From Spirochaetes bacterium ADurb.BinA120 (GTDB taxonomy: Bacteria > Spirochaetota > UBA4802 > UBA5368): a DNA stretch of 41,305 nt. A program made the translations under genes and the position numbers. Positions 6,538 to 37,431 of the stretch are shown piece after piece. The notes beneath the pieces are model-generated. The model was not told the origin of the DNA and searched no databases. It worked only from the letters and a program-made list of their open reading frames with translations. The stretch spans positions 1 through 41,305 of the forward strand of contig MVZN01000022.1 in the NCBI GenBank assembly GCA_002069125.1. Direction: 5' to 3'. The first letter of the stretch is position 1. Every line of letters begins with the position of its first letter.

Positions 6538-6742
6538 GAACTCACCCCCTAACCCCCTCTCTTTGAACGAAAGAGAGGGGGGATCGCGGCATGATCCATA
6601 AGAAATTACAGAGGCGCATCCGGAACCAATATTATGAGGAGCCGCTACTGTCGACCGGATACCGGATATCTCCAGAAAGCCTCTTATCTTGACTCCCCCT
6701 TCTCTTGCTCGAAGAGAAGGGGGCCGGGGGGATGAGTTAGAA
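6538..6742. repeat. hairpin-paired intergenic repeat element
   Basis: Two near-identical hairpins face each other. CCCCCTCTCTTT (6553-6564) pairs with 6570-6581 across a 5-base loop, and CCCCCTTCTCTT (6695-6706) pairs with 6712-6723 across another 5-base loop. Outer ends are also inverted: AACTCACCCCC from 6539 against GGGGGGATGAGTT at 6726-6738. About 110 bases of unpaired sequence lie between. No open reading frame and no T-tract is present, so this looks like a dispersed palindromic or MITE-like repeat rather than a terminator, although either hairpin might help end icmF transcripts. Confidence 0.6.
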
Positions 6743-6879
6743 GAGTTTTCGGCGGCATAGAGTAATTTTAAATCGCAGCCATCGAGACTCGCAGGAGGCC
6801 GGAAGTGTCGGTTGCGCCAGGGTTGCAGGAAAACTAATTGCCTCTGGAACAATTATATTATATCATCAAATTCAATTAA

Positions 6880-6970
6880 GGGAACCTCTAATAATTAAGG
6901 GCGGTCACAAAAACTATATTTACCCGCCAGCCGAAGGCGGACGGGTAAACCAAATTTCTAGAAGTTGCCT
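6880..6970. repeat. second small inverted-repeat element upstream of cobO
   Basis: Imperfect terminal inverted repeats (GGGAACCTCTA at 6880-6890 and TAGAAGTTGCCT at 6959-6970) enclose a central hairpin, TTTACCCG at 6919-6926 against CGGGTAAA at 6942-6949, with GCCGAAGGC in the loop. The layout is that of a short non-coding miniature repeat. It ends 23 bases before the cobO start and could influence cobO expression. With the 6538-6742 element it fills most of the 477-base gap between icmF and cobO. Confidence 0.5.
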
Positions 6971-6993
6971 AAAATTTCTTACCGGGAGGAAGC

Positions 6994-7521
6994 ATGGATA
7001 AACGCGCCTGCGTACATCTCTACACGGGACACGGCAAGGGGAAGACGACCGCCGCGCTCGGACTAGCCCTTCGGGCCGCAGGGCACGGAATGAAGAGCAT
7101 TTTTATACAATTCATGAAGGGCCAGCATTACGGCGAGCTCGATGCCGCAAGGAGGCTCAACGGTCTTATAACCATCGAACAGCACGGGAGCGCCCAATTC
7201 TGCCGGCCCGATGACGACAATGCCGAGGAGCACCGCCGTTATGCGCGCGGGGCGCTGGAGCGCTCGCGCGAGGTGCTGTACGGCGGAGCGTACCCGCTCG
7301 TAGTTCTCGACGAGATCGTTACGGCCCATCTGTTCAAACTGATACGCCTCGACGAGATACTCGGCCTCCTGAAGGGTAGGCCCGAGGGCGTGGAGCTCGT
7401 CCTTACAGGCCGCGGCGCCCCTAGTGAGCTCATCGATGCGTGCGATCTGGTTACCGAAATGAGGGAGGTAAAGCACTATTATACCGAGGGGGTCCCGGCG
7501 CGGGAGGGCATAGAGTATTGA
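6994..7521 (+). CDS. cobO: cob(I)yrinic acid a,c-diamide adenosyltransferase (CobA/BtuR/CobO family)
   Basis: A 175-residue ATP:corrinoid adenosyltransferase, close to the usual 170-200 residues. It transfers the 5'-deoxyadenosyl group of ATP to cob(I)alamin or its precursors in the cytoplasm. The P-loop is TGHGKGKTT (11-19), the Walker B-like strand is LVVLDEI, and the C-terminal family block reads from LVLTGRG through VKHYYTEGVPAREGIEY. A GGGAGG ribosome site precedes the ATG. Its product, adenosylcobalamin, is the cofactor of IcmF encoded just upstream on the same strand, which suggests functional coupling despite the 477-base gap with repeats. It converges on acs. Confidence 0.95.
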   Translation: MDKRACVHLYTGHGKGKTTAALGLALRAAGHGMKSIFIQFMKGQHYGELDAARRLNGLITIEQHGSAQFCRPDDDNAEEHRRYARGALERSREVLYGGAYPLVVLDEIVTAHLFKLIRLDEILGLLKGRPEGVELVLTGRGAPSELIDACDLVTEMREVKHYYTEGVPAREGIEY

Positions 7522-35158: not shown

Positions 35159-36187
35159 ATGCGAACGATTCCACGCCTGGCCTCACTGCTCCCGGCCATA
35201 CTGACTTTAATAGTCACGCCCGCCTGCAACAAAGGCGAACTCTTTACGTTCAGCAGGCCCATGTTGGGGACGATGATAAACATCAGCCTTATCGCGGATA
35301 CACGTGAAACTGGGGTCAGAGCCTCCACTGCGGCGTTTTCCGAGATAGCTCGCATCGAGGCCCTAATGAGCCCGAAACTTGCCGATAGCGACATCGCGCG
35401 CATCAACCGCGAGGCTTCGAGGGTGCCGGTTTCGGTATCCGGCGAGACCTTCGAGCTCATCCGCGCCTCCATAGGGGTGTCCCGGGAGACCGACGGCGCC
35501 TTCGATATAAGCTTTGCCTCGCTTGGCGGACTATGGAGGCTGGGGGACGATAATTTCCAGCCGCCCGAGCCCCGTCTTGTTGCCCGGGCGCTTAGGCTTG
35601 TCGATTACCGAAAGATCGTGCTCGAGGATAAGGCCCGCCGGGTTTTTCTGGCCCTTCCGGGCATGAAGCTCGGGCTTGGTGGAATAGCCAAGGGCTACGC
35701 CCTGGGGTGCGCGGCCCGGGCCCTCGGCCGGGAGGGGGTCAGAGCCTTCATAGTCGACGCGGGAGGCGATATCCTGGTCGGCGGCGACAAGCTCGGCCGA
35801 CCCTGGCGCGTGGGCCTTATGCACCCCCGCGAAAAGGAGATAATCCTCGCCCTTTCGCTTGGCAACGGCGAAGCGGTGGTGACGAGCGGCGATTACGAGC
35901 GCTTCGCCGTTTACCGTGGGGAGCGCTATCACCATATTCTGGACCCCAAAACCGGCTTTCCCGCAAGGGGGCTTTCATCCGTAAGCGTGATAGGCTCTGA
36001 CCCCGTGAGGGCCGATGCCTACGCCACGGCTCTGTTTGTCATGGGAGGGGTCAGAGCCCGCAAGTTCGCGGCCGCGCATCCAGAAATAAAGCTTATTCTT
36101 ATCGACGAGGAGATGCGTATCGCGGCCTCCAGGAGCCTGAAAGGCCGGATTTCGCCGACGGGAAGCGAGGAAATCGAATGGTTTTAG
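35159..36187 (+). CDS. apbE: FAD:protein FMN transferase, lipoprotein
   Basis: A 342-residue ApbE. It attaches FMN through a phosphoester to Thr or Ser of target proteins such as the NqrC and RnfG subunits. The signal peptide ends in VTPAC, so it is a lipoprotein facing the periplasm. Family motifs are SRPMLGTMINI, GGIAKGYALG, DAGGDILVGG and, for the metal site, DPKTGFPARGLSSVSVIGSDPVRADAYATALFVMG. The start is 35159, with CAGGAG upstream. Unusually, the exact 12-mer GGGGTCAGAGCC lies in frame three times (GVRA at 35312, 35735, 36047) and once inverted (GSDP at 35993). Target flavoproteins are not in the window. Confidence 0.95.
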   Translation: MRTIPRLASLLPAILTLIVTPACNKGELFTFSRPMLGTMINISLIADTRETGVRASTAAFSEIARIEALMSPKLADSDIARINREASRVPVSVSGETFELIRASIGVSRETDGAFDISFASLGGLWRLGDDNFQPPEPRLVARALRLVDYRKIVLEDKARRVFLALPGMKLGLGGIAKGYALGCAARALGREGVRAFIVDAGGDILVGGDKLGRPWRVGLMHPREKEIILALSLGNGEAVVTSGDYERFAVYRGERYHHILDPKTGFPARGLSSVSVIGSDPVRADAYATALFVMGGVRARKFAAAHPEIKLILIDEEMRIAASRSLKGRISPTGSEEIEWF

Positions 36188-36399
36188 GGGGGGATGGGGT
36201 CAGAGCCTCGGTAAGACAGTTTTGTCCCGAAATTGGGGTCAGAGCCCTCTCCGAATCGACACCAGCCCCGGGAACCAGGGGGTCAGAGCCTCGAACCCGA
36301 ACCTTCGGGTCATCGACGCGCCTGTCCGCATCGCCTGATTAATATTTGACGTGAATACAGGGAACATATAGGCTCTATGAGTATAAGAAGAACGGCATC

Positions 36400-36627
36400 A
36401 TGAACAAACAGAACAAACAGAACAAAAAGACCCCTTCGGCGACCCGCACCGTGCAAAGAGATATCGGCGCCGCGATGGTTCGCAATCTTGAAAAATGCGC
36501 ATCCCTGACCTCCACCCTTTTCGCCATGAAGACTTCGCTCTATCAAACCCTGTATCCGAACAGCGATAGAGAAGAAATCCGAAGCTTACTGCTCCGCGAT
36601 ATTCTCAGGCGCAAATCAGGAAGGTGA
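36400..36627 (+). CDS. small hypothetical protein paired with nucleotidyltransferase
   Basis: A 75-residue basic protein that I do not recognise. It begins with MNKQNKQNKK, encoded by a 9-base tandem repeat (AACAAACAG twice, then AACAAAAAG), and ends in a helical SDREEIRSLLLRDILRRK segment. It ends 3 bases before the nucleotidyltransferase gene, so the pair is surely coexpressed. The arrangement resembles small two-gene cassettes of the toxin-antitoxin kind, but neither partner has a known toxin motif. A TTGACG at 36346-36351 might be part of its promoter. Confidence 0.6.
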   Translation: MNKQNKQNKKTPSATRTVQRDIGAAMVRNLEKCASLTSTLFAMKTSLYQTLYPNSDREEIRSLLLRDILRRKSGR

Positions 36628-36630
36628 GAA

Positions 36631-37170
36631 GTGCCGCTTTCGGACGATCCGCTGATCAGTGTGTCAGACCTCTTTTTCAAGCACGGAATTAAATTCTGCG
36701 TGGCAGGGGGATGGGCGGTCAGTATATGGGGGGCCGTCCGGGCCACGGAGGATATCGACCTGGTCGTCCTGACCGATCCCGGCGATCATGAGGCAATTAG
36801 ACGGATTCTCGAAATCCGCTACCGCGTCATCAGTCATCCCGCTTTTTTCTTCGCCGGCACCCACACCCCGGTGTGGCGGAATGTCCTTACAGCTCCTGAC
36901 ATAGACGATCACTGTGTGCTCGACATCATCATCGCGACCACAGACTACATGAAAGCGACAGTTGAACGGGCGGTATTCATTGAATATCGTGAGGTTTCCC
37001 TCCCCATTATCGCCCTCGAAGATCTTATCATCCTCAAGGCGATGGCTGGGAGGACCCAGGACAGGGCCGATATAGAAGCGCTCTTGAAGGGGACCATGCC
37101 GCTGGACACTGAATACCTTATAAGAACCGCTCGGGGGCTCGGTGTCGATGTCGGGTTTTTATCAGGGTAA
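36631..37170 (+). CDS. nucleotidyltransferase-fold protein (AbiEii/MNT-like)
   Basis: A 179-residue protein with the minimal nucleotidyltransferase core: CVAGGWAVSIWGAVRATEDIDLVVL (residues about 23-48) gives the GG motif and the Asp-x-Asp metal site (DID), and the third acidic residue is probably Asp in VLDIIIATTDY. The C-terminal part (LEDLIILKAMAGRTQDRADIEALL) matches the helix typical of AbiEii and related MNT proteins. GTG start with AAGGTGAG just upstream. MNT proteins can act as antitoxins or toxins that modify tRNA or proteins. It lies in a repeat-rich insertion-like region behind apbE with its small partner gene. Confidence 0.8.
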   Translation: MPLSDDPLISVSDLFFKHGIKFCVAGGWAVSIWGAVRATEDIDLVVLTDPGDHEAIRRILEIRYRVISHPAFFFAGTHTPVWRNVLTAPDIDDHCVLDIIIATTDYMKATVERAVFIEYREVSLPIIALEDLIILKAMAGRTQDRADIEALLKGTMPLDTEYLIRTARGLGVDVGFLSG

Positions 37171-37223
37171 ATAGTAAACGACTGGATTTCGGGCCCTCTG
37201 CCACAGAAACGCACATTCGGATT

Positions 37224-37315
37224 TTCGACCTGGTAACGACGATAGGCTCTGACCCCGTGAGGGCGGACGCCTACGACACGGCCCTGTTCGTTATGGGAGG
37301 GGTCAGAGCCTCAAG
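37224..37315 (+). pseudogene. remnant of a second apbE 3' segment
   Basis: This stretch repeats about 75 bases of the apbE C-terminal coding region (35987-36060). In frame it reads IGSDPVRADAYDTALFVMG, against the intact IGSDPVRADAYATALFVMG. Most base differences are at third codon positions, so it derives from a diverged, once-coding apbE copy rather than a fresh duplication. No catalytic N-terminal region is present and no start supports expression. It sits just beyond the nucleotidyltransferase cassette and carries the repeat 12-mer in both orientations, with the same 54-base spacing as apbE. Confidence 0.75.
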
Positions 37316-37431
37316 GGAAAATCCCAGTGACATGGCTTTGTACTGGGGATGTGGGGCCAGAGCCCCATTGGAGTCGATTTGCTCCGGAATTGGGGTCAGA
37401 GCCCATATCGCAGGGGAAAAACGCTGCTCCG

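Follow-up and report, generated by a model that had tools for sequence, protein, structure and literature searches.

A clustered 12-base word linked to RAYT-like transposases lies in conserved codons of apbE and other genes of a spirochaete and its relatives

Introduction

RAYT-like genes that are flanked by GGGGWSAS repeats instead of REP hairpins have been described as TIRtrons (open-access text of Di Nocera et al. 2013; PMC3733652), and most TIRtrons, or TIRYTs, have been assigned to TnpA-REP subclass 2.1 (open-access text of Quentin et al. 2018; PMC6006769). The mechanisms by which REP and TIR words with domesticated transposases are disseminated are poorly understood (PMC8266576). Here we describe a 12-base word, GGGGTCAGAGCC, which is a repeat of RAYT-like (Y1/HUH) transposases; its clustering is real, linked to RAYT genes and unusual. 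As far as open-access text shows, the kind of repeat is known, whilst the replacement of codons at constant length and the conservation of the word at the DNA level within genes are new.

The word shares with TIRtrons and TIRYTs a RAYT-like Y1 gene and repeats of the GGGGWSAS type that are clustered, and partly inverted, around that gene. It differs from them in being 11–12 bp long and repeated over a zone of several kb, and in having copies that take the place of codons in neighbouring genes, where they are conserved; the open-access text of neither paper describes this. REPtrons, with their REPs and REPINs, also combine a RAYT-family tyrosine transposase with short repeats that are dispersed, in arrays or, in some cases, in inverted pairs, but these are GTAG hairpins, whereas the word has no GTAG/GTGG head and generally no hairpin beside it. 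Intragenic REPs and Rickettsia palindromic elements are likewise mobile repeats that are tolerated in frame inside coding sequence; they are insertions that lengthen the protein, whereas the word replaces bases and leaves the length constant. In its style of placement the word also resembles the uptake sequences of Neisseria (DUS) and the Pasteurellaceae (USS), which are words of 10–12 bp in coding DNA that encode tolerated peptides and arise by replacement, apparently not through stepwise mutation.

Sequences and comparisons

The window, meaning the whole stretch of DNA that was analysed, comprises 41,305 nt of contig MVZN01000022.1 (C22) in assembly GCA_002069125.1 of Spirochaetes bacterium ADurb.BinA120, a genome (G000) of 3.5 Mb in 216 contigs. 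Genome-wide word counts come from pattern searches and extracted stretches, and the controls were the shuffled window, the reversed pattern (for genomes) and permuted words (for the mismatch test). Genes other than apbE, the radical-SAM gene and the mqn genes were called by a simple ORF/codon-usage rule that misses some real genes, so that the division into coding and intergenic copies is approximate. For apbE, five species were compared, four from the genus and one from a sister genus, with 59–68% protein identity to the apbE of the window.

The word in the window

A scan of the window found ten exact copies of the 12-mer and one with a single mismatch, all within 35312–37403, and none elsewhere in the window; shuffled windows held a mean of 0.28 copies and a maximum of 2. 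The initial annotation, which had counted these copies within 2.1 kb and had called four copies in a 1-kb gene far beyond chance, is thus confirmed on both points. The gene is apbE (35159–36187, plus strand), which encodes a 342-aa member of the FAD:protein FMN transferase family (PF02424, 266 bits) with a match in 53 of 59 related genomes; by sequence, the nearest solved structure to its product is 1vrm (TM1553). Three of its copies are on the plus strand (35312–35323, 35735–35746 and 36047–36058) and read Gly-Val-Arg-Ala (GVRA) in frame, the first as GGG GTC AGA GCC, and an inverted one (35993–36004, minus strand) reads Gly-Ser-Asp-Pro (GSDP), as had been annotated. All three AGA codons of this apbE fall inside the repeats.

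Behind the apbE stop codon stands an array of three copies (36196–36290, plus strand; starting at 36196, 36235 and 36279). It is followed on the same strand by a small ORF of 75 aa without a family match (36400–36627) and by a nucleotidyltransferase of the AbiEii/DUF6036 type (36631–37170), which lies between the two blocks of copies. The second block opens with an inverted copy (37245–37256, minus strand) and a plus-strand copy (37299–37310), the left and right bounds of a fragment of apbE itself (37224–37316, plus strand; about aa 272–302; E=1.2e-7, 74% identity). It ends with the one-mismatch copy, GGGGCCAGAGCC (37353–37364), and a final copy (37392–37403), both on the plus strand. The annotated spacings are also found, 39 and 44 bases in the first block and 54, 54 and 39 in the second, where 54 occurs twice.

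Distribution of the word

Counted over the whole of G000, the exact 12-mer occurs 18 times and its reversed control pattern 0 times; for the core GGGTCAGAGC and its control the figures are 45 and 2, and GGGGTCAGAG has 38 copies. Nearly all copies of the word are on a few contigs. Most genomes of the same order carry many copies of the word, and the other sampled families of the phylum few or none; the papers listed by a literature search for the word itself were all unrelated. That the pattern is due to chance, codon usage or an artefact of assembly is a reading with next to no probability: GVRA, ALTP and GSDP are indeed unremarkable peptides, but the idea is contradicted by near-zero controls (0–4 copies of the reversed word against tens of the word), and the pattern is present in independent genome assemblies of several families. 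The base that follows the core is homogeneous within clusters, being C in 10 of 10 copies in the window's contig and A in 16 of 16 in contig C31 (permutation within genomes, p=5e-5).

Linkage to RAYT-like genes

In G000 most copies are found around two RAYT genes of the Y1_Tnp family (C44:22969-23580 and C31:13817-14404), which sit inside two of the main clusters. Both proteins match 'REP-associated tyrosine transposase' best in NCBIfam, with scores a little under the cut-off; matches to PF01797 (50 bits) and NF047646 (76.7 bits against a cut-off of 80) identify a RAYT-related Y1 HUH transposase, and the HUH motif NHIH and a QYIK tyrosine region are present in the translations of the RAYT-like proteins. 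For the C-terminal helix-turn-helix that is a trait of subclass 2.1, no Pfam HTH was found in either protein at E up to 1, a level at which a remote similarity is possible. A third Y1_Tnp gene of this genome (C42:1466-1690, L027) has no word nearby.

The distance to a RAYT gene is at most 7 kb for 23 of 38, 12 of 24 and 23 of 56 copies in three genomes, where 0.2–1 would be expected. Word and RAYT co-occur among 46 genomes of the order (p=0.003): of the word-bearing genomes, 32 have a RAYT and three do not, and of the word-free genomes five have one and six do not. Copies upstream of RAYT mostly share its strand (47/67) and those downstream are more often inverted (32/54), a bias that is clear upstream and weak downstream. 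A genome of another family (G035) has three clusters of about 10 kb in which a RAYT or a relic of one is found; relics are central in two of its clusters. Some clusters speak against the link: no RAYT was detectable in those of the window's own contig, of G006 (C7), of G002, G019 and G036, and in some clusters of G035. Two genomes with several RAYT relatives each and no copy of the word (G013 and G037) count against tying the word to RAYT; they may use another word.

As for the window, G003 and G004 have an orthologue of the C44 RAYT (74–75% identical) at a distance of about 8 kb from apbE, with the same order of genes. Since C22 and C44 each break off between apbE and RAYT, these contigs are probably neighbours in the G000 genome, with the RAYT probably encoded near apbE.

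The initial annotation had likened the copies behind apbE to REP arrays and had pointed to Y1 (REP-associated) transposase genes as possible neighbours. The link to such genes was found, the clusters lying at RAYT genes; the likeness to canonical REPs did not hold, there being no conserved hairpin and no GTAG/GTGG head in the consensus GGGGTCAGAGC. A hairpin REP model was rejected, since the 30-base flanks had no greater tendency to fold than their shuffles (mean z −0.1 to −0.5). Instead, GGGGTCAG fits the TIRtron motif GGGGWSAS, and its copies flank the C44 and C31 genes. In G003 and G004, the RAYT start is closely preceded by inverted word pairs with an A/T-rich stem (L118 17760–17797; L120 2548–2592).

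Coding copies in apbE

The 11-mer core is retained at each of the four apbE sites in five of five species, either as the 12-mer or with a GCA ending. The second and fourth sites are exact in all five and the first in four, with GCA in the fifth; the inverted third site reads TGCTCTGACCCC (CSDP), the ..GAGCA form, in the four other species. In the five-species codon alignment, degenerate codons for invariant amino acids are identical in 14 of 15 cases inside the sites and in 17 of 134 outside (p=2e-10), and, of the five longest invariant runs, four are these sites; four-fold sites outside the words show a pairwise difference of 43–63%. Because codons are invariant inside the sites and synonymous positions have diverged outside them, the alignment indicates that the word in apbE is held at the DNA level.

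In apbE outgroups (other families and the remaining genus of the family), the word is absent, with 3–11 mismatches at the sites, except that TGCTCTGACCCC stands at the third site of a distant genome (L114). Within the sites there is no length difference except for a one-residue gap at site 1 of L111. Since the outgroups are word-free and equal in length at nearly all sites, the word replaced existing codons of apbE. The initial annotation had considered a repeat inside a gene to be unusual, which proves an understatement given codon replacement without indels and conservation at synonymous positions across species. Alignment of the orthologues, which it had proposed, shows the site codons conserved in the five species, and word-free orthologues with the same codons at all four positions, which would have spoken against it, were not found. 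Its placement of the copies in an essential-motif region has to be corrected: they adjoin conserved ApbE motifs and do not lie within the most conserved residues.

These alignments bear on the idea that the copies are ordinary, old REP or TIR insertions that happen to be in frame. Intergenic arrays of the word do resemble TIR clusters, and intragenic REPs are known (open-access text of PMC3733652). Published intragenic REPs are, however, insertions, and over half of these encode 20–30 aa, whereas the sites compared here, including those in two mqn genes described below, show no length difference in nearly all cases and keep their synonymous positions. The alignments contradict such insertion, which we consider very improbable.

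A serious rival is purifying selection, in which a domesticated RAYT or another DNA-binding protein needs a binding site near the RAYT locus, and the word has been built by point mutation and then kept. What makes it serious is that the edges of the conserved unit are sharp, as DNA-level conservation in the five species shows, and that copies persist where no RAYT is found nearby: the word is retained in the apbE of G006, and no RAYT relative was found in the examined parts of that contig. RAYTs are, moreover, considered domesticated (PMC8266576). Against selection, outgroups are 4–8 bases away at most sites and there is no excess of coding intermediates with one or two mismatches; frame, strand and host gene all vary, one site being inverted in place in G004; and the last base follows the cluster. 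On balance we judge selection unlikely, at something like one chance in a few.

Coding copies in other genes

A radical-SAM gene adjoins the RAYT. Its site B is GGGGTCAGAGCC in three species and ends in ..GCG in a fourth, and outgroups have codons of the ALRA/ALKA type there with the length unchanged. At its site A, G000 has one extra codon just before the word, which counts against pure replacement in place. The gene is intact in G000, G004 and G006 and in pieces in G003 (L197/L118, G003:C53:87903-88437). In the C31 cluster, copies encoding ALTP, GVRV and GVRA are carried by genes that we take, from reading their sequence, to be aminotransferase-like and oxidoreductase-like, and they recur in G001.

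REPs are mainly extragenic; by contrast, 40 of 83 examined copies in G035 lie in predicted genes, in any of five stop-free frames (the gene calls being approximate). Around a RAYT relic of this genome lie two genes presumed, again by reading the sequence, to be mqnC-like and mqnA-like. The former carries GVRA where 17 orthologues of equal length have 4–8 mismatches, and the latter ALTP where 15 aligned orthologues have 4–7 mismatches and no length difference. An in-frame insertion that lengthens the protein was thus absent from nearly all apbE sites, radical-SAM site B and both mqn sites. The mqnA-like gene of G016 (L226) has GGCTCTGACCCC (YAGSDPY) at a site other than that of G035, which is likely an independent coding copy.

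How the copies may arise

In coding DNA of the pooled loci there are 48 exact 11-mers, 20 copies with one mismatch and 66 with two, against means of 0.2, 10 and 134 for permuted controls. Of the 20 with one mismatch, 11 differ at the first base only, so that, this base aside, near-miss intermediates are not in excess at one or two mismatches. Stepwise accumulation should leave such intermediates, and their lack in coding DNA counts against stepwise mutation towards the word, a route that we reject.

Our best reading (probability about 0.55) is a RAYT-dependent local spread of a recognition word by in-place conversion, followed by maintenance at the DNA level. The word and its linkage to RAYT, its replacement of codons without indels at nearly all compared sites, its DNA-level conservation and its homogeneity within clusters are observations; binding and cutting of the word by the RAYT, and its writing by strand copying and not by selection, are what we infer. 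In this model, GGGGTCAGAGC(C/A) would be the putative recognition word, of the terminal-inverted-repeat type, of a RAYT/TIRYT-like Y1 HUH transposase, and most of its spread would be within several kb of the gene that encodes the transposase. The HUH nuclease would nick single-stranded DNA at word copies, and the freed word-bearing strands would anneal at partly similar sites nearby (or at alleles in other cells) and be copied in. Intergenic copies would form arrays, and coding copies would arise by base replacement, without insertion or deletion, where the peptide (GVRA, GSDP/CSDP, ALTP, GSE or GQS) is tolerated; local writing and re-writing would homogenize the copies of a cluster. The lack of intermediates, the homogeneity of the last base and the copy inverted in place all fit local copying in which RAYT products act or serve as template. 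Counting against copying are the sharp edges of the 11–12 bp conserved unit, unlike those of usual homologous conversion tracts; such edges also suit selection for a binding site.

The word could also owe its spread to an uptake-like molecular drive, in which cells would exchange word-bearing fragments in preference to others and incorporate them by recombination, as with Neisseria DUS, the RAYT linkage being secondary. The style of placement is the same, a short word put in place in coding DNA, and Neisseria DUS is a published analogue for such in-place appearance, new copies facing homologous sequences that are too different for point mutation (PMC2397512). Uptake sequences number hundreds to thousands per genome (PMC2346458), however, whereas the 3.5 Mb genome holds merely 45 core copies, strongly clustered at the transposase genes, and few or no copies of the core were found in the other sampled families of the phylum. 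We regard such a drive as improbable, and more so than selection.

Returning to RAYT-dependent spread, a stronger form of it is tentative and somewhat doubtful, namely that a RAYT-family HUH enzyme writes its own word into neighbouring DNA, coding DNA included, by single-step templated replacement. Nearby protein sequences might then carry the word as a conserved imprint of a process distinct from insertion. Coding copies offer a record that intergenic copies cannot give, since orthologues show the states before and after, and in orthologous genes what is seen is replacement at constant length instead of insertion. If RAYT does write words into genes, a selfish or domesticated element would have a new means of altering protein sequences, and the mechanism of spread would be testable in a simple assay.

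Rearrangements around the word

The process proposed above might also move cassettes and gene fragments that lie between copies. The first copy behind the apbE stop has an equivalent place in G002, G003 and G006, and in G004 it is inverted in place. G003, G004 and G006 lack the cassette of the small ORF and the AbiEii/DUF6036-type nucleotidyltransferase in the corresponding stretch, and G002 has a different nucleotidyltransferase at its place (26% identical; L119 about 6674-7075). Beyond the cassette, the same inverted word pair as in apbE bounds the apbE fragment; between the words the fragment differs from apbE by six bases, five of them at third codon positions; as the differences fall mostly at such positions, an origin in a diverged apbE allele is suggested. 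Capture of cargo between words would be the natural reading of cassette and fragment. The small ORF and the nucleotidyltransferase (36400–37170) form a possible toxin-antitoxin-like pair.
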